Source: Actinomycetota bacterium
Lineage (GTDB): Bacteria; Actinomycetota; Acidimicrobiia; Acidimicrobiales; JAJPHE01
DNA: 64,000 nucleotides
Reading direction: 5' to 3'
NCBI GenBank assembly: GCA_021325435.1
Contig: JAJPHE010000071.1
Span: forward strand, 1 to 64,000
In this document: positions 11,111-46,188 of the stretch, piece after piece
Layout of the letters: each line of letters starts with the position of its first letter
Position numbering within the stretch: position 1 is the stretch's first letter
Program-made: the position numbers and the translations under genes
The notes under the pieces: model-generated
The model's input: the letters and a program-made list of their open reading frames with translations, nothing else
Databases searched by the model: none
What the model was told of the DNA's origin: nothing

Positions 11111-13207
11111 CTACGCCGGCTCCTCCGGCCGCGCTGGCCCCGCCTCCTCGAGCAGGCCGAACAGCTCCCCGAGCGCGGCCCGGGCCGCCGAGCGCACCTG
11201 TTCGTAGGGGACAGGCCCTCCCGCCTTGGCGATGCGCAGGCGCTCATCCCAGAGCTGAATCGACAACTTGTAGCCCCGCAGCCCTGCCCGCAGGGCGCGA
11301 TCCGCCCCGGCCAGGTCCTTGTCGGCGCGCCGCCACGCGGCCAGCTCGGCCGCCGTTCGCTCGATGACCGCGTCCAGGCGGTTGCGCTCCTCCACGGCGA
11401 AGTTCCAGGTGCCGAAGGCGACCAGCGGCACGCCCCGCACCAGGTCGAGAGCCTCAGCCAACAGCTCCGCCCGGGGGGCCCCCGCCAGCCCCGAGGCGCG
11501 CTTCAGGACGCGGTCGAACTCGACCACGTCGACGCGCAGCGCGTCGGTGAGCCGGTAGCCCGCCTTCTTGTCGAAGCGGGGAATGGCACCGGGCGGAAGC
11601 AGAGAACGCAGGTCCGAGATGTAGTTCTCGATGGTCTTGGTGCCGGGCTCCTTGAGGTCCGTGCCGTAGAGGCTGCGGATCAGCTCCTCATCGAGGGGCC
11701 GGTCCCCGCCGCCGGCCAGGGCGATGATCACGAGCACCCGCAGGTGGCGTTCGTCGAGGTCCCCGAGCCGCCCGACCGCCCCGACGCCGGTCCGCATGAG
11801 GTAAAGGGCAGCGCCGTCCGGACCCTCGGCCAGGTCGGGGGCCGTGCCGTCCTCCTCAGCGCCGGTGGGCGCCGTGACCACCGCGTCGGGCTCCCGCAGG
11901 TCGACCACGTCCACGGGCACCTCGGCGACGACGGGAGCCTCGGGCTGTGGAGGCTCCCCCGTCGGCACGAGCTTGGCGCCCTCTTCGCCTTCGACGATGA
12001 CGAAGACCCGCACCGGCCGAGCGATGTCGGCCCGCTCGGACGCGAAGGCCAGGGTGCCGGCCACCAGGAAGCCGACCAGCAGGGCGAAGCGCAGGAGCCA
12101 GACGAGGTCGGACCCGCCGGGCACCGGGGGATGGGCCGCGGCCTGGGCGTCGATGCTCGGCGGCGGAGCCCCCGAAGCCGGGAAGTCGAGGCTCAGGGTG
12201 GCCGGTGCGGTCATGTGCAAGTTCCAACCGCCCGTCTGGTCCGGACCGAAGCTGGCCGGCTCGAAGCGCACCTGGGCGTGGCGCAGGTCGGCCGGGACCG
12301 TCCAGTAGTAGACGTCCTGGGCCACGCCCATCCACCAGTTGTCTACGTGGCCGGCGCCGATCGGTTGGTGGCCGGGCACGAGGAGCTGGAGCCGGTCGGC
12401 GGGCCAGGTGACCTGGATCCCGTAGTCCGACGGCCCGTACACGCGGCAACGCAGAAGCAGGAAGGCCTGGCCGGGCCCGGGGTGCTCGCTGGGCGCGTGG
12501 GGCCCGTACCAGGCGAGCTGCGCGCCGTCGATCTGGAACGTGGCGCTGGCCGAGGGGTTGTCGAACGAGGGATCAGTCGGGTCGGCGACGGATGCCGGAG
12601 CGGTTGCGCTCGTCACCGGGGCGGCGTCGACCACAGCGCTGCTGGACGAGCGGTACGACACGGCGGGGACCGGGGCGACGAGGCGGGCGTAGTTGACCGA
12701 GTAGTCGGTCAGCGCCCCGCCGTCGTTCAGCTGGAAGAGGACCGGGGCGCCTTTGGGCACGGCCTGGGCCCACATGAAGCTGGCGCTGGTGATCCAAGAG
12801 GACAGATCGAGGGGCCAAGACCTGCCGGCCACGACCATGGCGGCGCTCAGCCTCGGGCCGGAGTTGTCCAGCGCCGCCGCCAGGGCGTTGGAGTCGAGCG
12901 TCCCTGCGAATTCGACCACGGCGATCAGGTCCCCGGATGGCGCGACTACCCGGTCCGAGCCGGAGCCGATGGCGGAGAACAGCCCCGATCCGGTGATCTG
13001 GCCCGTGAAATAGAGGCCCTGCACCCGAGGGTCCGACGGGTGGGTGAGGACCACGCCCGGATCGGCGTTGAGGACATGGGGCCCGGTCCCGGGATCAAGC
13101 AAGTTGCCCGACGGTCCGGGGTGGACGAAGAACGTGGCCACCAGGACCACGAGAGCGACCAGCGCTGCTCCGGTCGCCGCCCGGGTTCTCAGGGAACGCC
13201 CCAGCAT
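11111..13207 (-). CDS. Membrane protein with cytoplasmic SARP-like wHTH-BTAD regulator domain
   Basis: 698 residues. TM1 is ATGAALVALVVLVATFFV (about 11-28), followed by a 335-residue extracytoplasmic part, TM2 DLVWLLRFALLVGFLVAGTL (about 367-386), an acidic linker, an OmpR/SARP-like winged helix (about 485-555, ending RFDKKAGYRLTD) and a bacterial transcriptional activator (BTAD) helical domain to the end. The architecture is that of a one-component transmembrane regulator: external sensing, DNA binding inside. It is divergent from the transfer genes at 13357, so it may control them. No protease or kinase motif is seen. The external domain is unrecognised. Confidence 0.7.
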   Translation of the reverse strand: MLGRSLRTRAATGAALVALVVLVATFFVHPGPSGNLLDPGTGPHVLNADPGVVLTHPSDPRVQGLYFTGQITGSGLFSAIGSGSDRVVAPSGDLIAVVEFAGTLDSNALAAALDNSGPRLSAAMVVAGRSWPLDLSSWITSASFMWAQAVPKGAPVLFQLNDGGALTDYSVNYARLVAPVPAVSYRSSSSAVVDAAPVTSATAPASVADPTDPSFDNPSASATFQIDGAQLAWYGPHAPSEHPGPGQAFLLLRCRVYGPSDYGIQVTWPADRLQLLVPGHQPIGAGHVDNWWMGVAQDVYYWTVPADLRHAQVRFEPASFGPDQTGGWNLHMTAPATLSLDFPASGAPPPSIDAQAAAHPPVPGGSDLVWLLRFALLVGFLVAGTLAFASERADIARPVRVFVIVEGEEGAKLVPTGEPPQPEAPVVAEVPVDVVDLREPDAVVTAPTGAEEDGTAPDLAEGPDGAALYLMRTGVGAVGRLGDLDERHLRVLVIIALAGGGDRPLDEELIRSLYGTDLKEPGTKTIENYISDLRSLLPPGAIPRFDKKAGYRLTDALRVDVVEFDRVLKRASGLAGAPRAELLAEALDLVRGVPLVAFGTWNFAVEERNRLDAVIERTAAELAAWRRADKDLAGADRALRAGLRGYKLSIQLWDERLRIAKAGGPVPYEQVRSAARAALGELFGLLEEAGPARPEEPA

Positions 13208-13356
13208 CCCCCCACCTCCTGCTCCCCCAGCTCTTCCTCCAGAGCTTTGTCCGATTCGCGCCCCACCGCCAGTGGTTGGTGGAGCAACCGGTGTGGCCCG
13301 GGAGGTCCCCGGGTCACCGACCCCGGGCCCAGGCCCGGAGAAAGGGGACAGCTCCC

Positions 13357-13695
13357 ATGAAGCTGCCCATCGATCCCGCCGGCGTCGTGTTCACCTGCGC
13401 CGGTGCCCCCGAGGCGGTCATGGACTGGGACGACCGCACCAAGCCCGAGACGGACGAGGCAGGTCGGCCTGTGTTCCGGGTCTCCTTGCTCGCTATTGCC
13501 GAAGGCCCCGGTGAGGTCATCCCGGTGAAGGTGGCCGGGGAGCCCCAGGGCCTGGTGACCAACACCCAGGCCAAGGTGACCGGGCTGTCGATCGAGCCCT
13601 GGACCAGCAGGCGCTCCGGACGCTCCGGGGTGACCTACTGGGCCAAGGCGATCGAGCCCGTGGCTGCTGCCCGCCCCGAGCGGGCGGCGTCGTGA
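13357..13695 (+). CDS. Small conserved-looking AICE transfer-region protein
   Basis: 112 residues from ATG 13357 behind ggagaaagggg. The sequence MKLPIDPAGVVFTCAGAPE through VKVAGEPQGL resembles the short proteins that precede the translocase gene in Streptomyces AICEs and plasmids, where they have no assigned activity. Overlaps the next gene by GTGA. First gene of a seven-gene transfer/replication/integration operon. Confidence 0.65.
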   Translation: MKLPIDPAGVVFTCAGAPEAVMDWDDRTKPETDEAGRPVFRVSLLAIAEGPGEVIPVKVAGEPQGLVTNTQAKVTGLSIEPWTSRRSGRSGVTYWAKAIEPVAAARPERAAS

Positions 13696-13838
13696 TCGGG
13701 CGGATGGCCGCTGCCGCCGGGAGCTTCGTGCTCCTGGCGGTGGCGCTCACCTCCGACGCGCTGACCACGTTTCTCGCCACGGTGTGGCTCCTCGCCATCG
13801 TGGCCAAGAGAGCCGAGGCCCGCCATGCCCGCCGCTAG
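13692..13838 (+). CDS. Small membrane protein
   Basis: 48 residues, too short for usual gene calls. GTG 13692 overlaps the previous stop as GTGA, and the stop lies inside the next gene. It consists of two hydrophobic stretches (AAAAGSFVLLAVAL, TTFLATVWLLAIVA) and a basic tail KRAEARHARR. Similar tiny membrane proteins sit before the translocase in actinobacterial conjugative elements and may help spread DNA; that link is inference. Confidence 0.6.
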   Translation: MIGRMAAAAGSFVLLAVALTSDALTTFLATVWLLAIVAKRAEARHARR

Positions 13839-15117
13839 AAACCACCCGCTCCGCTGGCGGGGCTTTACCCGACGGTGGCGAACCGAGCTCGGCCTGGCCG
13901 GCGCCTTCGTCGCCCTGCGCATCGTGCTTGGCGCCGTCGGGGGGCCGAGCCTGTTGCTCATCGGCAGCGTGGCCGTCGTGGCCGTGGCCGCCTTCGTGCG
14001 CGCCGCCCGACAGGCGCTGCTCGAGCGCCTGCTCGACTCCCGCCGGCTCCGGCGCTGGGAGCACAACCTGGCGTTGGTCGCGCCGGAGCGCACGCCGGTG
14101 CCGCTCGAGGTCGAGGCTTATGGCTTCGGCGAGCGGGGGGCGCTGCGGGTGGCCGGCGGGGCCACGGTGACGGAGCTGGCCAAGTGCTCCGAGGCCCTGG
14201 CCGCCTGCTTCGGCGCCAAGGCCGTCCGCGTGGGCCGCCATCCAGACCACGCCGGCGTCGCTTTGGTGTCGGTGCTGATGAGCGATCCGCTGGCCCGCCC
14301 GGCGCCGGACTGGCCGTGGCTTCGTCGTCCGACGACGTCGTTGTGGGAGCCGGTGCCGCTGGGAGTCAGTGAAGGTGGCGCCCCGATCAGCATCAGCCTG
14401 CCCGAGCACAACCTGCTCTTGGGCGGCGAGCCCGGCGCCGGCAAGTCGGGGGCCATCAACCTCTTGGTGGCCGCCGCCGCCCTCGATCCCCTGGCCCAGC
14501 TTTGGTTGCTCGACGGCAAGCTGGTGGAGCTGGCCGCCTGGCGCAAGGCAGCCGTCGACTCGGCCGGGCTCGACGTGTGGGAAGCGGTGGAGCTCCTGCG
14601 TCGGGTCCAGTCGGTCATGGATTCCCGCTACCAGTTGCTGCTCGAGGCCGGCTTGCGCAAGGTGAAGGCGGGGAGCGGCCTGCACCTGGTGGTGGTAGAC
14701 GAGCTCGCCCACTACCTCACTGGTCCGGACAAGAAGGCCCGGGACGCCTTCATCGAGGTGCTCCGCGACCTTGTCTCTCGAGGACGGGCGGCGGGCATCG
14801 TCGTGGTGGTCGCCACCCAGAAGCCCGGCTCTGATGTCGTGCCCACCAGCCTGCGGGACCTGTTTGGCTACCGCCTGGCCATGCGCTGCTCGACGGCGGC
14901 GGCTTCGGACACGATCCTCGGCTCCGGTTGGGCCACCGAGGGCTACTCGGCGGCCAGCATCGACCCGGCGACGAGGGGCGTCGGCTATCTGCTGCACGAG
15001 TCGGGCGTGCCACAGCTCCTGCGCACCCACTGGCTCGACGACGACGCTGTGGACAGCCTCGCCACCCGGGCCGCGCGCCTCGGTCGCGAGTTCGAGGACG
15101 GGCAGGGCGATGAATGA
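13825..15117 (+). CDS. FtsK/SpoIIIE-type DNA translocase (TraB/TraSA-like)
   Basis: 430 residues. Two N-terminal hydrophobic segments (LGLAGAFVALRIVLGAVGG, LLLIGSVAVVAVAAFV) precede an FtsK motor domain with Walker A GGEPGAGKSG (about 200-209) and Walker B LHLVVVDELA (about 286-295). Membrane anchoring plus one motor fits the TraB/TraSA proteins that move double-stranded DNA between mycelial or neighbouring cells. The gene overlaps both neighbours, so it belongs to the transfer operon. A gamma-like DNA-reading domain is not obvious at the C-terminus. Confidence 0.88.
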   Translation: MPAARNHPLRWRGFTRRWRTELGLAGAFVALRIVLGAVGGPSLLLIGSVAVVAVAAFVRAARQALLERLLDSRRLRRWEHNLALVAPERTPVPLEVEAYGFGERGALRVAGGATVTELAKCSEALAACFGAKAVRVGRHPDHAGVALVSVLMSDPLARPAPDWPWLRRPTTSLWEPVPLGVSEGGAPISISLPEHNLLLGGEPGAGKSGAINLLVAAAALDPLAQLWLLDGKLVELAAWRKAAVDSAGLDVWEAVELLRRVQSVMDSRYQLLLEAGLRKVKAGSGLHLVVVDELAHYLTGPDKKARDAFIEVLRDLVSRGRAAGIVVVVATQKPGSDVVPTSLRDLFGYRLAMRCSTAAASDTILGSGWATEGYSAASIDPATRGVGYLLHESGVPQLLRTHWLDDDAVDSLATRAARLGREFEDGQGDE

Positions 15118-37789: not shown

Positions 37790-39349
37790 ATGTCGGACCA
37801 TTCCATGAAGGAGCGCCTCGAGGAGCTCGCCCGCCGCCGGCACGAGGCCCTGCACGCCGGATCCGAGCGCTCCGTCGAGCGCCAGCACGCCAAGGGCAAG
37901 ATGACCGCCCGCGAGCGGATCGACTACCTGCTCGACGACGGCTCCTTCCAGGAGCTCGACATGCTGGCCCGCCACCGGGCCCACGGCATGGGCCTCGAGG
38001 AGACCAGGCCCTACACCGACGGCGTCATCACCGGGTTCGGCACCATCGACGGGCGCAAGGTGTGCGTGTTCAGCCAGGACTTCACCGTGTTCGGCGGGGC
38101 CCTGGGCGAGGTGTTCGCCGAGAAGATCCACAAGGTCATGGACCTGGCCGCCTCGGTCGGGGTGCCCATGATCGGCCTCAACGACGGGGCCGGCGCCCGC
38201 ATCCAGGAGGGGGTCGTCTCCCTCGCTTCCTACGGCGGCATCTTCCACCGCAACGTCAAAGCCTCAGGGGTGATCCCCCAGATCAGCGTCATCCTCGGCC
38301 CCTGCGCCGGAGGCGCCGTCTACAGCCCGGCCATGACCGACTTCATCTTCATGGTCCGGGAGACCAGCCACATGTTCATCACCGGGCCCGACGTGGTGAA
38401 GACCGTCACCGGCGAGGACGTCACTCTCGAGCAGCTGGGCGGGGCCGTCAGCCACTCCACCAAGTCCGGGGTCGCCACCTTCGTGTCGGGCGAGGAGAAG
38501 GACTGCCTGGACGACGTCCGGTACCTGCTGTCGTTCCTGCCCTCCAACAACCTGGAGGAGCCGCCGCTGGTCATGCCCAGCGACGACCCCGACCGGCTCA
38601 CCCCCGAGCTGTCGGAGATGATGCCGTCCAGCCCCAACCAGCCCTACGACATGAAGAAGGTCATCTCGGCCGTGGTGGACGACGGGGAGTACTTCGAGTA
38701 CTTCCCGAACTGGGCCATGAACCTGACCTGCGGGTTCGCCCGCCTGAACGGGCGACCGGTCGGGGTCGTGGGCAACCAGCCCCAGGTGCTGGCGGGCGTA
38801 CTCGACATCGACAGCTCCGAGAAGGGCGCCCGCTTCGTGCGGACCTGCGACGCCTTCAACATCCCCCTCATCACCTTCGTCGACGTACCCGGGTTCATGC
38901 CCGGCACCGACCAGGAGTACGGCGGCATCATCCGTCACGGGGCCAAGCTGCTCTACGCCTACTGCGAGTCGACCGTGCCCCGGATCCAGGTCATCACCCG
39001 CAAGGCCTACGGCGGCGCCTACGTCGTCATGAACTCCAAGTCGATCGGGGCCGACCTGGCCTACGCCTGGCCGTCGGCCGAGCTGGCGGTGATGGGGCCC
39101 CAGGGGGCGGTGGAGATCGTCTTCCGCCGCGAGATGGCCGAGGCGGCCGACCCCGAGGCGCGGCGCAACGAGCTGGTCGAGGAGTACATCGAGCGCTACG
39201 CCAACCCCTACATCGCCGCCGAGCGGGGATACGTGGACGACGTCATCGACCCGGCCGACACCAGGCGGGTGCTCATCCACAGCCTGGAAATCCTCAGCAC
39301 CAAGAAGGAAGAGCTCCCCCGGCGCAAGCACGGCAATGTCCCGCTCTGA
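37790..39349 (+). CDS. pccB: Acyl-CoA carboxylase beta subunit (carboxyltransferase)
   Basis: 519 residues, full length. Carboxyltransferase fold: [18 protein letters not shown], the oxyanion-hole region [12 protein letters not shown] and [16 protein letters not shown], and [20 protein letters not shown] with [16 protein letters not shown]. Likely propionyl-CoA carboxylase beta chain, making methylmalonyl-CoA for the mutase pathway; acetyl-CoA specificity cannot be excluded. The biotin alpha chain is not in the window. Overlaps the epsilon gene. Confidence 0.95.
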
Positions 39350-39539
39350 GCCGTCGCAGCCGGCGCCGCCGCCCGAGGTGGTGGCGGCGATAGCGGCGGC
39401 GGTCGAGACGTGCTGGCCCCGGCCGGTGGCGGCCGAGACGGGGGCGCCTCACGGCCGGCAGCCCTCGGCCTGGAGGAGGTCCGGGTGGTGGTGGTCCAGG
39501 CCGTTGCCGGCCCGGCGCCCCCGCCCCTGGCGCAGCTGA
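39336..39539 (+). CDS. accE: Acyl-CoA carboxylase epsilon subunit-like
   Basis: 67 residues, starting 14 bp inside the beta-subunit gene. [17 protein letters not shown] and the tail [20 protein letters not shown] match the short epsilon proteins that follow actinobacterial carboxylase beta genes and stimulate the complex. Easily missed because of its size and overlap. Confidence 0.75.
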
Positions 39540-39649: not shown

Positions 39650-40660
39650 GTGCGAGTGGGCCTACCCGGGGCCGGGATGATTGCCGCCGCCTTGCGTGGC
39701 TGGTATCGCCGCGCTCGAGCGTCCCGTGAGCAGGGGTTCACGGTGGTGGAGCTGACCATCGCCCTCGCCCTGATGGCCCTGGTCGTCGCCGCCATCGCCC
39801 CCTCCCTCTACGCCGCCTTCCGCAGCAGCTCCACGATGAACAGTCGCGAGGAGGCCAACTCCCTCGCCATCGAGGCCACCGAGAGCCTCCGCTCGCTCCC
39901 GTATTACGAAGTCGGGTACAGCGCCACGAACCCGAAGCCGTCGTCCTGCACCGGTCAATACCCGGTCACGGTGGCCACGTCGGGGCTCACGTCGGCGGTG
40001 CTGCCCTCGACCCAGACGGTCGGCCACCAGACCTTCACCGTCGTCGCCTGCGCCTACTGGGCCTCGGCCGGGGACGGCTCCTACCCCGGCGCCTACAAGG
40101 AGACGGTCGTCACCGTCACCTGGCACGACGAGGTGAGCCAGACGAACGCCAACGGGTTCAACACCGTCGTCGAAACCTCCGCTCTCTATCCGGGCGGTCA
40201 GACGGCTTACATGGCGTGCGCCAACTTCGACCCGGGTACCACGGCGACGACGATTGCCTGCCCGGTTCCGACCACCAGCAGCTCCACGTCGACGTCGTCG
40301 TCATCCACGTCGACCACATCTAGCTCGACCTCCACCACGAGCACCACCGTGGCCTCCACCACGACGACCACGACCGCCACGACGACCACCCTTCCCGCGC
40401 CGACGGTTACCTCGATCAATCCTTCGTCCATCAAGAAGAGCCAGACGACCACGCTCACCATCAGCGGCACCAACTTCGTCGCCACACCGACGGTCACGAT
40501 CTCGGGGGGTGGGGGGAGCGCGACTGTCACGTCTTTCAGCTCCACTACCCTGACGGTGCAGGTAACCGCCGGCTCCACTACCGGCACCTACAACGTCACG
40601 GTCACCAATCCGAGCGGACAATCCGTCACCGTCACCGGCGGGCTGACGGTCAAGAACTGA
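39650..40660 (+). CDS. Prepilin-like protein with Thr/Ser linker and IPT/TIG domain (cassette 1)
   Basis: 336 residues; GTG 39650 or ATG 39677. Type IV prepilin signal EQGFTVVELTIALALMALVV with Gly before the cleavage and Glu5. After about 190 residues a low-complexity Ser/Thr stretch (40262-40395) leads to an IPT/TIG-like Ig domain (PTVTSINPSSIKKSQTTTLT). Probably a minor pseudopilin with an adhesive tip domain. First gene of a three-gene cassette, overlapping the next by ATGA-like TGATG. Confidence 0.8.
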   Translation: MRVGLPGAGMIAAALRGWYRRARASREQGFTVVELTIALALMALVVAAIAPSLYAAFRSSSTMNSREEANSLAIEATESLRSLPYYEVGYSATNPKPSSCTGQYPVTVATSGLTSAVLPSTQTVGHQTFTVVACAYWASAGDGSYPGAYKETVVTVTWHDEVSQTNANGFNTVVETSALYPGGQTAYMACANFDPGTTATTIACPVPTTSSSTSTSSSSTSTTSSSTSTTSTTVASTTTTTTATTTTLPAPTVTSINPSSIKKSQTTTLTISGTNFVATPTVTISGGGGSATVTSFSSTTLTVQVTAGSTTGTYNVTVTNPSGQSVTVTGGLTVKN

Positions 40661-41517
40661 TGATGGCTCGGGCTCCCGTGACGCGCAGAGAGGGGATACA
40701 GGGCGTGGCTGAACGCCCAGCCGCCGACTCGGGCTTCACCCTCATCGAGGTGGCGATCGTCCTGCTGATCTTCAGCATCGTGCTGGTCGTCTTCGGCGAC
40801 GTGCTGATGTCGATCGTGAGGGCGGGCGACAAGGGCGAGGCCCTGGTGGCCAACCAGCAGCAGGTGGAGAACGTCCTCACCCAGCTGGGCCGTGATCTCC
40901 GCAGCGAGAGCGCCCTTCTGGTGGCGGACAGCAGCGAGCTGAAGATGACGTTGGTCAACAGCCCCGGCAACACCGCGTCAGCCCGAACGGTGACGGCAGC
41001 GATGACAAGTGGCACGGACCTGCTGTCGGCGTCCGCCGCCACGTTCTCCAGCTCGGATGTCGGCTCGCTGGCAGCCAGCGGCGGCTACCTGCCGGCCAAC
41101 ACCTTCATCGTCGGAGTCTCGACTGACGGCTCTCAGGCCACCATCAACAACTCGGCCATCCAGACCGGATCGGCCGTCGTCACCGTCACCCCCGGGGACA
41201 CGGCCGACTGGACCTGCTCGGGCTCGACCCTGAGCCGCACCCTCGGGGTCGGCGGCATCACCTCCACCAACAGCTTCAGCCTCACCGGGGTACAGTCATG
41301 CACCCCGTTCACCTTGTACAACTTGGGCGGGTCGGCTGCCACCCCGACGACGTCGTCAACCAGCTCGACCGGCTGCACGGCGAGGGTCGGTATCACGCTG
41401 AGTGCCGCACCGGTCTCCAACCTGCAGCCGTACTCGGTGAACGAGAACGTGGAGTTGAGGAACCAGCTGGCCGTCTTGCAGCCGGCCAACATAGCGGCGA
41501 ATGGAACCCAATGCTGA
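40660..41517 (+). CDS. Prepilin-like protein, PilW/PulJ type (cassette 1)
   Basis: 285 residues. Signal DSGFTLIEVAIVLLIFSIVL, followed by the region GDVLMSIVRAGDKGEALVAN and ENVLTQLGRDLRSES typical of PilW/PulJ minor pilins. Start overlaps the previous stop; its end overlaps the next gene by 7 bp, so the three genes are coupled. Confidence 0.8.
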   Translation: MMARAPVTRREGIQGVAERPAADSGFTLIEVAIVLLIFSIVLVVFGDVLMSIVRAGDKGEALVANQQQVENVLTQLGRDLRSESALLVADSSELKMTLVNSPGNTASARTVTAAMTSGTDLLSASAATFSSSDVGSLAASGGYLPANTFIVGVSTDGSQATINNSAIQTGSAVVTVTPGDTADWTCSGSTLSRTLGVGGITSTNSFSLTGVQSCTPFTLYNLGGSAATPTTSSTSSTGCTARVGITLSAAPVSNLQPYSVNENVELRNQLAVLQPANIAANGTQC

Positions 41518-42740
41518 AACGCAATCGGGGAGAAGAAGGCAACCTCATAATCGCCATCGCCATCATCATGATCATCATGGCGGCGGCCACGACCTTCACG
41601 GCCCGTGCCATAGCGAACAATCACACGACCGTGAGGGTGCAGAACTTCGCAGGGGCCCTCGGAGCGGCCGACCGGGGTCTGGCCGACGCCATGTTCCAGC
41701 TGGCCCAAGGCCAGACGTCGTCCTTCTGTGGTGGCGCGCCCGGGTGCACGGGCGGACAAACCGTCTCGGGCCTCGGGAACGTCAAGTACGAGGCCATCTT
41801 CAACGGCAACCACCAGTGGACCATCTATTCCGAGGGCGTGACACCCAACGCCACCGGAAACGTGCCGCACGCCATTCGGGCGGGGGTGAGCCTGGCCAGC
41901 GGCGCCTTCAAGTACGCCGCCTTCGGAGTGAACAACTTCACCCTCAACGGGACCGTCACCGGGTCCGACATCCGCAACTTCACCGAGGGTGGCACTTGGG
42001 TGTCGGGGAGCGTAGGAGTGGGTAGCGACGACGCCAACGGCGGCGGCGGGTTGGTTTGCAACGGCACCACCCTTCCGGTCAGCAACAGCTACAGCGGGGT
42101 CACCAGCACCCTGACCGGAACCGAGAGCAACGACCCGAGCTCCACCTGGAGCAGCTGTGGGGGATCGTCCACCACGGCCACGTCCTACAACCCGGTGATC
42201 GCGCTCAGCCCGCCCTCAGGCTCCACTGTCCTGGCCTGTCCCAGCACCGGCGTGTTCACCGGCCTCGTCGAGCCCGGGATCTACCAGTGCAACCAGGACG
42301 TCACCGTCGGCCCGCTGACCGTCGACTCGACCAGCACGGTAAACGGGGGAGTGGTCCAGCTCTACATTGACCAGCCGGCCAGCAACATCGTTTTCGCCGG
42401 GGACACCAACTTCACCTCCGGATCGTTGCCGTTCTCCTCCCGCTTCCAGATCTACTCGAATGTCACGGGCGCCATCGGAAACAGCAACGGAGCGAGCACG
42501 GCGTACTCCATGGCGGGCATCTTCTACGCCCCCTACGCCACCCTCACGGCCAACGGCTGCAAGGACTACTACTACGGGGCGCTGATCGTCGGGTCGTACA
42601 ACTGCAACGGCGGCCCCAACCTTCACCTGTACTACGACAGCAACCTGGGCAATATGGGAACTTCGTATGGCGTGTCGAGCTACACGGAGATAGGGACCAA
42701 TCAGCTGCCGTCGTCCAGCTTCTCTGGCTTTAGCTGGTAG
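41511..42740 (+). CDS. PilX-like pilus assembly/tip protein (cassette 1)
   Basis: 409 residues from ATG 41511. N-terminal hydrophobic helix EGNLIIAIAIIMIIMAAATT without the usual Gly-Phe cleavage signal, as in PilX-type proteins, then a Gly/Ser/Thr/Asn-rich beta region with several Cys (FCGGAPGCTGG, LACPSTG, CNGGPNLHL). Its C-terminal half, IGGIIDAP-like AGIFYAPYATLTANGCKDYY, closely parallels the protein at 44857. Confidence 0.75.
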   Translation: MLKRNRGEEGNLIIAIAIIMIIMAAATTFTARAIANNHTTVRVQNFAGALGAADRGLADAMFQLAQGQTSSFCGGAPGCTGGQTVSGLGNVKYEAIFNGNHQWTIYSEGVTPNATGNVPHAIRAGVSLASGAFKYAAFGVNNFTLNGTVTGSDIRNFTEGGTWVSGSVGVGSDDANGGGGLVCNGTTLPVSNSYSGVTSTLTGTESNDPSSTWSSCGGSSTTATSYNPVIALSPPSGSTVLACPSTGVFTGLVEPGIYQCNQDVTVGPLTVDSTSTVNGGVVQLYIDQPASNIVFAGDTNFTSGSLPFSSRFQIYSNVTGAIGNSNGASTAYSMAGIFYAPYATLTANGCKDYYYGALIVGSYNCNGGPNLHLYYDSNLGNMGTSYGVSSYTEIGTNQLPSSSFSGFSW

Positions 42741-42809
42741 ATCCCCCGCCCGGGGGGCCCAGGACACATAACTAAAGCGCCTAGTCGGGGCGCGCCGATA
42801 GCTCGCGAC

Positions 42810-44105
42810 GTGGGAGTTCGAGCCGGTGTCTCCGGCCTCGTCGCGCGCTGCAAGCGGACTCGGACAAACAGGGACGAGTCGGGCTTCACCGTGGTCGAGC
42901 TCATCATCGCCATCAGCCTGCTGGCTCTGGTGATGGTGAGTCTCGGGCCCGCGTTCTGGGGCTCCCTGCAGGCCACCACGACGAGCAACAACCGCACGAC
43001 CGCTGACGGGATCGCCGTCCAAGCGCTCGAGGAGCTACGCGGCGACCAGTATTACCAGGTCGGGTTCACCGGGGCGGCGGGCAACAACCCCGCCCCTTCG
43101 AACACGCAGTGCCCCGGCTCCAACCTGGTCAACAACGTGACCACGTCGGCGCTGGCGCCGGGAGGGGCCTCCACGGTTGGGCCCATCCGTGGCATCACCT
43201 TCAGCGTCCAGGTGTGCGTCTATTGGACCTCGGCCTACGTGAAAGGGACGCTCAAGCCGGGGGCCTACAAGGAGACGGTGGGCACCGTCACGTGGGCGGA
43301 CGCCGACGGGCCCCACACGGTGACGGAGACGTCGGCCCTCTACCCGGGTGGCGAGGGTGCCTACTCCGGTACCGGGCAGAACAACTACGACCCCCGCAAC
43401 ATCGACCTGGGCAGCGGCGGTGGCGGGTCCCCCGCCATCCCCAATCCCCCCCAATCAGCCTCGATCGCCGACGACTCGGTCAACCCCACCACGGCGGTGG
43501 ACGTCAGCTGGACGCCGCCCGTCACCACGCCGGTCCTCGTCACCGGGTGGACCATCCAGTTCACCGACGACACCAACGCCAACGGGTCGGGGTCGATGTT
43601 CGTCAGCAACTACCCGACCGCCTCCACGTCCGCCACGGTCATCAACCTCACCCCGGGCCACACCTACTCGTTCCAGGTCTCGGCCCAGTCGGCCTCCGTC
43701 TCGTCGACTCCGACGGCTACCACGCCGACCTCCATCACCCTGCCGACGACGCCTCCCTGCACCGTGTCCAGCGTCACGGTGACGCCCAGCACGGGGACGG
43801 TGGACTTCTCCGGGAACCTCACCAGCCCGTCCGGGGGATTCTCGATCACCGCCCAGGCCAACGGGACCTGCCAGGCGGGAGCGGTGCAGGTGCAGTACTC
43901 CACCCAGCCACCCGGCAAGAACACCACCTTCTACCTGGCCAACATGTCGGGTAGCGGCACGCTCACGGGGTCGGCCTACCAGTCCGGCAGCGTCTGGCAG
44001 GGTGGCACCATCCCCTTCACCGTCGTGGTCAACGGCACCGTCACCTCGGTCAGCCAGCCCGTCACCCTCTGCCAGCTCAAGAGGAACGGAACGGGGTGCC
44101 CCTGA
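42810..44105 (+). CDS. Prepilin-like protein with fibronectin III-like domain (cassette 2)
   Basis: 431 residues from GTG 42810. Signal ESGFTVVELIIAISLLALVM, a first domain paralogous to the protein at 39650 (ALEELRGDQYYQVGF; GAYKETVGTVTW), then a fibronectin III-like domain (PNPPQSASIADDS; TPGHTYSFQVSAQSA) instead of TIG. Stop overlaps the next start as TGATG. Confidence 0.8.
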   Translation: MGVRAGVSGLVARCKRTRTNRDESGFTVVELIIAISLLALVMVSLGPAFWGSLQATTTSNNRTTADGIAVQALEELRGDQYYQVGFTGAAGNNPAPSNTQCPGSNLVNNVTTSALAPGGASTVGPIRGITFSVQVCVYWTSAYVKGTLKPGAYKETVGTVTWADADGPHTVTETSALYPGGEGAYSGTGQNNYDPRNIDLGSGGGGSPAIPNPPQSASIADDSVNPTTAVDVSWTPPVTTPVLVTGWTIQFTDDTNANGSGSMFVSNYPTASTSATVINLTPGHTYSFQVSAQSASVSSTPTATTPTSITLPTTPPCTVSSVTVTPSTGTVDFSGNLTSPSGGFSITAQANGTCQAGAVQVQYSTQPPGKNTTFYLANMSGSGTLTGSAYQSGSVWQGGTIPFTVVVNGTVTSVSQPVTLCQLKRNGTGCP

Positions 44106-44866
44106 TGTGGGTCGCCCGCCTGATGCAGCGGTGCCGCGAGCAGGGCCGCCAGGACGACGCCGGCTTCACCCTGGTGGAGCTGGTGGTGGCCATGGGCATC
44201 TTCCTCGTGATCATCCTCATCATGGGCGACGTGCTGACCTCGCTGACCCGGGCGTCGGCGCGCGGTGACGCCCTGGTGACCAACGAGCAGCAGGAGATGT
44301 TCGCCGTCACCCAGATCGGCCGCGACCTCCGGGGTGCCGCCTACATAGTCACCGCCCCCACCACGACCGGCGGGCAGCCGACCCCCACGACCTGGTACTT
44401 CAACCAGCTGGTCATGAGCGAGGTGAACCCGACCGGGGGCGCCCAGACAACGGTCGGATGGGTCTTCAACCCGACATCGCAGGACCTCTGCCGCGACATC
44501 CTCTCCTCGCCGGCGGCGACCCTGCCGGCCTGTGACGGGACGACCTCGTCCAACCAGCGTTACGTGCTCACCAGCGTGAAGAACACCCCGTGCACCAGCA
44601 CGACGACCCTTTCCTCGTCGCCGCCCTGCCAGCCCCTGTTCAAGCTGTACGACCAGAACGCGGTGAGCGGGGCCGCCGACCTGGTCACCCAGAGCCAATC
44701 GAACAGCGCCGTAACGCTGGGGATCATCTCCCAGTGCACCGACCGGGTGGCGGTCACCGTGGTCAGCGCCATCAACCCCGGGCCCCAGCCCATCGAGGTG
44801 GACGAGGACTTCGAGCTTCCCAACCAGTTCTCCGGCCCGTTAGGGAACCAGATCCAATGCCCCTGA
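44105..44866 (+). CDS. Prepilin-like protein, PilW/PulJ type (cassette 2)
   Basis: 253 residues from ATG 44105. Signal DAGFTLVELVVAMGIFLVII and then GDVLTSLTRASARGDALVTN, QIGRDLRGAA, a clear paralogue of the protein at 40660. Overlaps the next gene by 10 bp. Confidence 0.8.
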   Translation: MWVARLMQRCREQGRQDDAGFTLVELVVAMGIFLVIILIMGDVLTSLTRASARGDALVTNEQQEMFAVTQIGRDLRGAAYIVTAPTTTGGQPTPTTWYFNQLVMSEVNPTGGAQTTVGWVFNPTSQDLCRDILSSPAATLPACDGTTSSNQRYVLTSVKNTPCTSTTTLSSSPPCQPLFKLYDQNAVSGAADLVTQSQSNSAVTLGIISQCTDRVAVTVVSAINPGPQPIEVDEDFELPNQFSGPLGNQIQCP

Positions 44867-46188
44867 AGCGCCTCCCCTCCAAGATCCGCCCCCGCGACGA
44901 GCGCGGGGACATGCTCATCGCCGTCGCCGTGCTGATGATCATCCTCATCATGGGCACCACGTTGATGGCCCGCACGGTGGCCAACGTGGACGTGGTCACC
45001 CATCAGGAGAACTTCTCCGGGGCGCTGGCCAATGCCGACGCCGGGCTGTCCGACGCCCTCTTCCAGCTGGATCAGGGCCGTTCCGCCAGCTTCTGCGTGG
45101 GTCCCCCTAGCGGGTGCGCCGAAGCGTCCGTTCCCGGCGCGGCCGGAGTCGAGTACCGGGCGATTCTGGTGAACAACAACCAGTGGAAGGTCCAGTCGCT
45201 GGGCTCGCTGCACGGGGTACCTCATGGCATCCAGTCCACCGTGAGCCGGGCCGCCCTGTTCCCCTTCGCCATGTTCGGCAAGAACCTTCTCGACTATCGA
45301 GGCAACATCAACCAGGCGACGTTCGACAGCTACACGCAGGGGTCCGGGCCGGTCAACCCGAGCGGTCAGGTCCAGGTGGGCTCGGACGGAACTCTGTACT
45401 GCAACGCCGGCGGGCTTCCCGCCAACGTGTCCGGCACGGTCTTCGAGGGCAACTCGGCCAGCACCACCGGCAACCAGTGCCCGGGGGCCACGACGGCCAC
45501 CGGGTCGTGGAACCCGCCACCGGTCTATCCCCCCGGCTATCCGAACAACAGCCTGAACGCCTACCAAGGGTGCCCCGACAGCGTCCTGGCGGGCGGCGTG
45601 TACCAGATGGGAACGCCCGGCCAGCTGACCTATGTCACGCCCGGCATCTACCTGTGTGACGCGCCGGTGCTGGTGGTGGGTGACCTGGCCCTCGGGTCGG
45701 GCAGCAACAACAACGGCGAGGTCCAGATCTACATCGACCTTCCCTCGACGCTCAACACCACCGCCACCACCGACTGGGACGCCCCCGGCCTCAACGTCAA
45801 CTACGAGCCGTCCGGCGGCTCTTTCCCGGCCAACCTGTACCCCGACGCCTACGACTTCCAGTGGTACTCGAACGGGGTGGGCAACTTCGGCAGCACCAGC
45901 GGCTCCAGCAACTCGTTCACCATCGGTGGGATCATCGACGCCCCGGGCGCCTACCTCATCGGAGACGGGTGCAAGAGCACCTACTACGGGGCCCTGATCA
46001 TCAACACGCTGAGCTGCAATGGCGGCCCGAACCTCACCATCAACTTCGACAGCAACCTCACCACTGACATGGGGCCGTGGGGCGTGTCCGCCTACACCGA
46101 GGTTGGTGCCTGCCAGGACACCAGCGGCGGGGCCTGGCTCACCCACTCGTCCTGGATGCCGGGCCAGAACACCAGCAGCGGCTGCTGA
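44857..46188 (+). CDS. PilX-like pilus assembly/tip protein (cassette 2)
   Basis: 443 residues from ATG 44857. N-terminal helix ERGDMLIAVAVLMIILIMGT, NADAGLSDALFQLDQGRSAS, and a C-terminal IGGIIDAPGAYLIGDGCKST with CNGGPNLTINFDSN, aligned with the protein at 41511. Several Cys could form disulfides outside the cell. Confidence 0.75.
   Translation: MPLKRLPSKIRPRDERGDMLIAVAVLMIILIMGTTLMARTVANVDVVTHQENFSGALANADAGLSDALFQLDQGRSASFCVGPPSGCAEASVPGAAGVEYRAILVNNNQWKVQSLGSLHGVPHGIQSTVSRAALFPFAMFGKNLLDYRGNINQATFDSYTQGSGPVNPSGQVQVGSDGTLYCNAGGLPANVSGTVFEGNSASTTGNQCPGATTATGSWNPPPVYPPGYPNNSLNAYQGCPDSVLAGGVYQMGTPGQLTYVTPGIYLCDAPVLVVGDLALGSGSNNNGEVQIYIDLPSTLNTTATTDWDAPGLNVNYEPSGGSFPANLYPDAYDFQWYSNGVGNFGSTSGSSNSFTIGGIIDAPGAYLIGDGCKSTYYGALIINTLSCNGGPNLTINFDSNLTTDMGPWGVSAYTEVGACQDTSGGAWLTHSSWMPGQNTSSGC

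Follow-up and report, generated by a model that had tools for sequence, protein, structure and literature searches.

A three-gene minor-pilin set of Acidimicrobiales that probably builds alternative type IV pilus tips

We have analyzed 64,000 nucleotides (nt) from an actinobacterium of the order Acidimicrobiales, positions 1 to 64,000 of contig JAJPHE010000071.1 in assembly GCA_021325435.1. This whole stretch is called the window. It contains two successive V-W-X gene triplets, at 39677-42740 and 42810-46188, formed by six intact open reading frames (ORFs). V and W present the class III signal of prepilins: a glycine at position -1 (Gly-1), a glutamate at position +5 (Glu5) and a hydrophobic helix. 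X also behaves as a prepilin, with Gly-1 followed by a hydrophobic stretch. These triplets are paralogous modular minor-pilin cassettes, a real and well-supported case of an ordinary kind, though their number and placement are unusual. The three-gene set probably builds alternative type IV pilus tips.

Gene triplets of the window

The genes and modules are the following; lengths are given in amino acids (aa), and PF07963 is the N_methyl prepilin motif of Pfam.

39677..40660, plus strand: V1, modular minor prepilin, 327 aa; PF07963 5.6e-5, TIG 4.7e-10; 45% identical to V2 over 190 aa
40400..40624, plus strand: TIG/IPT module of V1, after a Ser/Thr-rich linker; Pfam PF01833 match 4.7e-10, residues 242-316 of the 327 aa protein
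40660..41517, plus strand: W1, minor prepilin, 285 aa; PF07963 8.1e-6; 27% identical to W2, 2e-17
41511..42740, plus strand: X1, protein in the PilX/GspK position, 409 aa, no Glu5 (Glu5 test), DUF7305 (PF23981 2.3e-8); 37% identical to X2
42810..44105, plus strand: V2, modular minor prepilin, 431 aa; PF07963 3.5e-5, fn3 2.7e-10
43446..43718, plus strand: fibronectin III (fn3) module of V2; Pfam PF00041 match 2.7e-10, residues 213-303
43752..44102, plus strand: C-terminal stretch of V2 after fn3, from the comparison of tails; boundary approximate, read by eye
44105..44866, plus strand: W2, minor prepilin, 253 aa; PF07963 7.9e-7; GTG 44096 is an alternative start
44857..46188, plus strand: X2, protein in the PilX/GspK position, 443 aa, no Glu5 (Glu5 test); paralogous to X1, no Pfam family at 0.01

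Two starts are possible for V1, ATG 39677 (327 aa) and GTG 39650 (336 aa). Neither X1 nor X2 is matched by N_methyl in Pfam.

An earlier sequence-only reading of this DNA had proposed that the cassettes are duplicated, and single-comparison BLASTP finds paralogy in all three gene pairs: 45% identity over 190 aa for V1/V2 (E 2e-40), 27% over 279 aa for W1/W2 (E 2e-17) and 37% over 430 aa for X1/X2 (E 5e-72). At the DNA level the triplets are alike in patches only, mostly of 66-73%, with a single 21-base patch of 95%. A recent tandem duplication is rejected on this basis; judged from the sequences, the divergence of the triplets is old.

The same reading held that the genes recur in the same order with the same overlaps. 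The order stands; the overlaps are alike in kind, not to the base. The V-W junction is TGATG (1 nt overlap) in both triplets, when W2 is taken from ATG 44105, and the W-X overlap is 7 nt in the first triplet and 10 nt in the second. The same-strand ORFs from 39677 to 46188 leave no space for a seventh gene beside the six of the two triplets. A hairpin between X1 and V2 (42741-42809) was tried as a terminator and rejected: for this 66-nt stretch z is 0.54, with 144 of 200 shuffles as good. A terminator scan gave six sites, every one of them on the minus strand.

The first proteins had also been said to differ in their C-terminal domain, and they do. The similarity of V1 and V2 stops at the end of the pilin core. 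Past the core, V1 has the Ser/Thr-rich linker and TIG, and V2 has fn3 and the further C-terminal stretch. Similar-looking tails are found behind fn3 in other V proteins; V1 does not have one. V is in fact a modular pilin, a prepilin motif joined to a non-pilus domain (TIG in V1; fn3 in V2 and in V3, the V protein of the third triplet described below).

Third triplet and pilus machines of the genome

A third triplet, of the fn3 type, is found on contig C89 of the same genome (locus L010), with V3 at 11875-13143 (fn3 3.4e-10), W3 at 13140-13811 and X3 at 13796-15046. All nine triplet ORFs are intact, with overlapping junctions. Searches of the genome gave three full matches for the X profile (all 5 candidates scored) and three strong matches for the V profile, the remainder being weak prepilin matches (all 30 candidates scored).

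No pilus motor genes had been seen near the cassettes, which agrees with our search: T2SSE, T2SSF and Peptidase_A24 have no match on the window's contig (C81). Their matches lie on C85, C132, C78, C102 and C152, and C76 has a further one below cut-off. Two pilB/pilC machines are encoded in the genome, on C85 and C132, both off the window's contig, and there is one Peptidase_A24 match, the prepilin peptidase, on C152. The C85 machine contains pilB, pilT, pilC, a pilM-pilN fusion and pilO, and it has no V-W-X triplet of its own. These names are upheld by Pfam and NCBIfam (T2SSE, T2SSF, PilM_2, PilN and PilO; TIGR01175 pilM and TIGR01420 PilT above cut-off). C132 contains a second pilB and pilC, a further T2SSE ATPase, a major-pilin-like gene and a distant V-W-X-like set. 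This short set follows pilC directly in the C132 machine (L011 6013-12437). N_methyl (Pfam) is found in its second protein, nothing in the first or third; the third has a weak GspK match (8e-5), below cut-off.

Prepilin motifs are matched 15 times in the genome, 14 times above cut-off. Six of these matches are the V and W genes of the triplets, C132 has three, and the other six are major-pilin-like genes with one common N-terminus (three on C48, two on C112, one on C85). Major-pilin-like genes, whose N-termini are almost the same, are located at L009 6929-9292 (C48, three in tandem), L012 8188-8733 and 8905-9387 (C85) and L013 1-967 (C112). The end fragments of C85 and C112 have sequence in common, and these contigs are probably broken inside one pilin gene of a repeat.

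Distribution, tail types and insertion site in related genomes

A three-row X profile matched 10 of 59 genomes, our own included, that is 9 of 58 relatives. Wider profiles were searched against a sample of 397 genomes from the order, with at most 8 (V) and 4 (X) candidates scored per genome; copy numbers given for relatives are lower bounds. The V-core profile matched 162 of them at E 1e-5, the weak rows including other prepilins. The X profile matched 78, 17 of which had more than one match, many of these weak or pieces of one gene. When cassette numbers are compared in this way, three X matches over 140 bits are found only in the present genome, and two in G009 and in G123. The two genomes of the same family hold distant relatives only: G002 has a V-W pair and an ORF like X, and G001 a V-like protein.

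We have annotated 54 stretches: the window, L010, 12 from the first search of relatives and 40 picked by hand from the wider searches. These 40 are mainly the strongest V or X profile rows, so the shares of tail types given below are no unbiased census. The 54 stretches gave 52 V proteins over 60 bits, 48 of them paired with an X; L104, L118, L137 and L138 were dropped, as they have no matched X, and L031, which is the contig of L099 to judge by its length (45,286 bases) and V tail, was not counted a second time. W was found by its motif in 38 of the 48 sets, the other 10 gave no W by that rule. The V-W-X gene order recurs in relatives, and V-W-X is a minor-pilin set found across Acidimicrobiales. 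Glu5 is present in 48/48 V. It is also present in 38/38 W, a circular count, as the motif used to pick W genes includes this Glu. X is different: Glu at +5 is found in 0/48, and Gly at -1 in 47/48.

Tail types vary among relatives. At E 0.001, Pfam finds fn3 in 26 of the 52 V proteins, PKD_4 in 4 and TIG in 2, which are V1 and the V of L138, the latter just below the curated cut-off. The 48 paired V were classified by a local profile for fn3 and a rule on length, PKD and TIG being assigned by hand: 27 have fn3, 9 no module, 4 PKD, 1 TIG and 7 another tail. On the X tree, the tail type changes at least 8 times. Unlike V proteins occur in two sets of one genome in G123 (fn3 in L108, none in L111) and G032 (fn3 in L050, other in L058); in G009 both sets have fn3. 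The module-less V are those of L049, L111, L112, L114, L115, L121, L125, L127 and L136, and five of these nine (L114, L115, L121, L125 and L127) adjoin pilB, pilT and pilC. L119, L120 and L122, from the same family (f40), have fn3 V with tails about 200 residues longer than most other fn3-type V.

In maximum-likelihood trees the three own copies group with L099 (G136) and L110 (G070), with supports of 99/94 for X, 100/99 for V and 100/98 for W. In both L099 and L110 the V-W-X set adjoins pilMN. Four of the five V in this group are fn3-type by the local profile; the V of L110, one of the four, has no Pfam fn3 match at 0.01. As fn3 is the commonest tail and also that of the four nearest sets, the TIG of V1 is most simply read as a derived state, a single replacement of fn3. 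The earlier suggestion of swapped adhesive tips is upheld in part by these results. Sequence, trees and the spread of tails agree with the replacement of a module; one TIG replacement is a simpler account than two alternative specialisations, and adhesion finds no support here.

A machine gene (PilMN, PilO, PilB, PilC or PilT) is found in the fetched stretch of 20 of the 48 paired sets, all 20 among the 45 outside this genome; 20/45 is a lower bound, as some stretches end at contig ends. When compared with the two machines of our genome, these genes are closer in every case to the C85 reference than to that of C132: 14/14 PilC, 12/12 PilT and 8/8 PilB, the C85 PilB reference covering the C-terminal 348 residues only. 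Such linkage in relatives, together with elimination within the genome, leads us to infer that the C85 machine is the partner of the orphan triplets.

The placement of the window triplets is also informative. On one side they are flanked by a carboxyl-transferase gene and a small ORF (39336-39539), which we take to be AccE-like from its position, and on the other side by a metallophosphoesterase gene. The gap between transferase and phosphoesterase is 6.9 kb in the window versus about 0.3 kb in G002, of the same family, whose carboxyl transferase is 88% identical to the window's. The gene order in G002 is that of the window: 5'-3' exonuclease, carboxyl transferase, AccE-like ORF, metallophosphoesterase and methylmalonyl-CoA mutase (flank names by Pfam), and its flank stretch has no V, W or X match. 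In G271 the gap is about 0.2 kb, without cassette, on a partial contig. In G009 the two genes are about 1 kb apart, and a different small gene, but no cassette, lies between them. G070 has neither phosphoesterase nor cassette at the site, and in G136 the transferase alone was found on the stretch. Since the flanks lie close together without a cassette in three relatives, the two triplets of the window have the look of an insert among metabolic genes that are otherwise conserved in their arrangement, insertion in this lineage rather than repeated loss being the simplest reading. A 10-base word, GGGCCTACCC, lies near both ends of the insert (39658, 46239); about 0.1 would be expected by chance, a rough hand estimate, and we have not used it as evidence. 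The right-hand neighbour of the third triplet was matched in 2 of 10 genomes, neither of the same family.

Pilus tips and alternative explanations

PilX and GspK do not have Glu5, and PilX has been modelled at the tip of the pilin complex (PMC7541494). X does not have it either, in any of the 48 sets, so it is likely the tip-most subunit, by analogy; on this point the earlier reading, which spoke of swapped adhesive tips for the first proteins, needs correction. The order of the genes also resembles the likely order of roles in the GspI-GspJ-GspK and PilV-PilW-PilX tip complexes, which have a third subunit without Glu5. Unlike those complexes, none of the six window proteins reaches a curated Gsp or PilV cut-off.

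We rather favor the view that the three triplets are alternative sets for tip initiation and serve one pilus machine whose genes lie elsewhere. V and W, as class III prepilins, and X, as the subunit without Glu5 in the PilX/GspK position, would be processed by the prepilin peptidase of C152. They would then form a priming complex and end at the pilus tip, where the C-terminal module of V would be displayed and may decide what the pilus touches. The C85 machine would use the triplets, two from the window and one from C89, as alternative or mixed sets for its tip. The window triplets would have come in as one block between the transferase/AccE-like ORF and the metallophosphoesterase gene, and the ancestral fn3 tail of V1 would have been swapped for TIG.

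Several results weigh against this view. No machine gene is found in the fetched stretch of 25 of the 45 outside sets, several of these stretches being short contigs. At E up to 1, neither X1 nor X2 is matched by PilX_N (PF14341) or GspK, nor is any of 12 X proteins at 0.01, so that X is called PilX/GspK-like and not a member of the family. AlphaFold models, made from three-row alignments, are unusable, with a mean predicted local distance difference test score of 38.3 for X1 and 45.0 for V2; the helix-then-beta layout of the V2 model has not been used as evidence. The assignment to C85 rests on elimination in a draft genome of 160 contigs, 96% complete. The empty site is readable in one of the two genomes of the same family, G001 having no close match to either flank. 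Finally, the three own copies form one clade in 22% (X), 15% (V) and 3% (W) of 200 bootstrap trees. The approximately unbiased test, made for X and V, gives p 0.371 and 0.443 for that clade, which is neither shown nor rejected.

An alternative, which we consider unlikely, is that the triplets form the tips of a competence pilus for DNA uptake, X being a ComZ-like pilin with a beta-solenoid. ComZ of Thermus thermophilus is a large pilin-like protein, as X is, and its solenoid resembles an ice-binding protein (PMC6561018). X may have a comparable beta domain: DUF7305 is found in 9 of 12 X proteins, with one weak ice-binding-like adhesive match (0.0037). There are also weak ComGE, ComGC and ComGF matches. 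On the other hand, we have found no sequence relation between ComZ and X. The X profile finds no pilin chain among PDB sequences up to E 1 (two antibody light chains at E 0.25, the only matches, are taken as chance), and the X1 model is of no help. In addition, fn3, PKD and TIG tails are not known to bind DNA.

Slightly less probable still is that the triplets are part of a pseudopilus like that of type II secretion, and not of surface pili, X being GspK and V and W being GspI and GspJ. X resembles GspK in having no Glu5, and GspI, GspJ, GspH and GspG give weak matches, all below curated cut-offs. Nevertheless, models of ComG, PilV and Hps give equally weak matches to V and W, so these matches do not discriminate. 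PilT-type and PilM-type genes occur in the cassette-linked machines of relatives, and PilT and PilM of C85 pass NCBIfam cut-offs. A last view, that the additional triplets are redundant or decaying copies without a role of their own, is very improbable: the rarity of two X matches over 140 bits elsewhere in the order sample (G009 and G123 only) speaks for it, but the nine ORFs are intact and have overlapping junctions though their divergence is old.

Alternative tip sets for one machine also have parallels in known systems. Myxococcus xanthus has three minor-pilin/PilY1 clusters, and the authors suggest that they serve one machine and speculate on tips of different properties; cluster 1 or 3 alone is enough for pili, and cluster 2 proteins were undetected (PMC7541494). 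The diversity of PilY1 across Myxococcota is treated in PMC13190605. The likeness lies in the several paralogous minor-pilin clusters and in a PilX or X without Glu5. There are differences as well: in M. xanthus the variable module is on a separate PilY1 and each cluster has a FimU, whereas our sets, of three genes each, have the module fused to V. Our genome has three triplets and two pilB/pilC machines, and their pairing would be as proposed above.

Modular pilins are widespread: a 2021 survey found 264 architectures, with IPR003961 among the 15 commonest (PMC8179133). In Streptococcus sanguinis, PilB is a modular pilin adhesin (PMC8179133), and PilA, PilB and PilC have been modelled as a tip complex (PMC9934059). 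V resembles PilB and PilC of this species in the grafting of a non-pilus domain on a prepilin core (PMC8179133, PMC9934059). Unlike them, for which ligand binding has been shown, the fn3, TIG and PKD modules have no known ligand here, and whole sets are multiplied. We take IPR003961 to be fn3, the commonest tail of our V proteins. As background, type IV pili have been reported in Rubrobacter and Actinoplanes (PMC8325347). Among the literature matches listed, some of them obtained with a guessed clade name, no paper describes V-W-X triplets in this order. By analogy, the present case may be described as a combination of the multiple clusters of M. xanthus with modular pilins, in an actinobacterium.

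In summary, these sets form a natural series: one V core with no module or with an fn3, PKD, TIG or other tail, with W and X of the same kind beside it. Such a series makes pilus-tip specificity testable by comparison and experiment. Tip sets can multiply and move off their machine, where they are hidden from cluster-based annotation. We can only tentatively propose a full tip repertoire, in which one machine would use three interchangeable, scattered tip sets, and the module fused to V would have been swapped repeatedly across the order. If this is true, a cell could alter what its pili hold, the pilus itself being unchanged.

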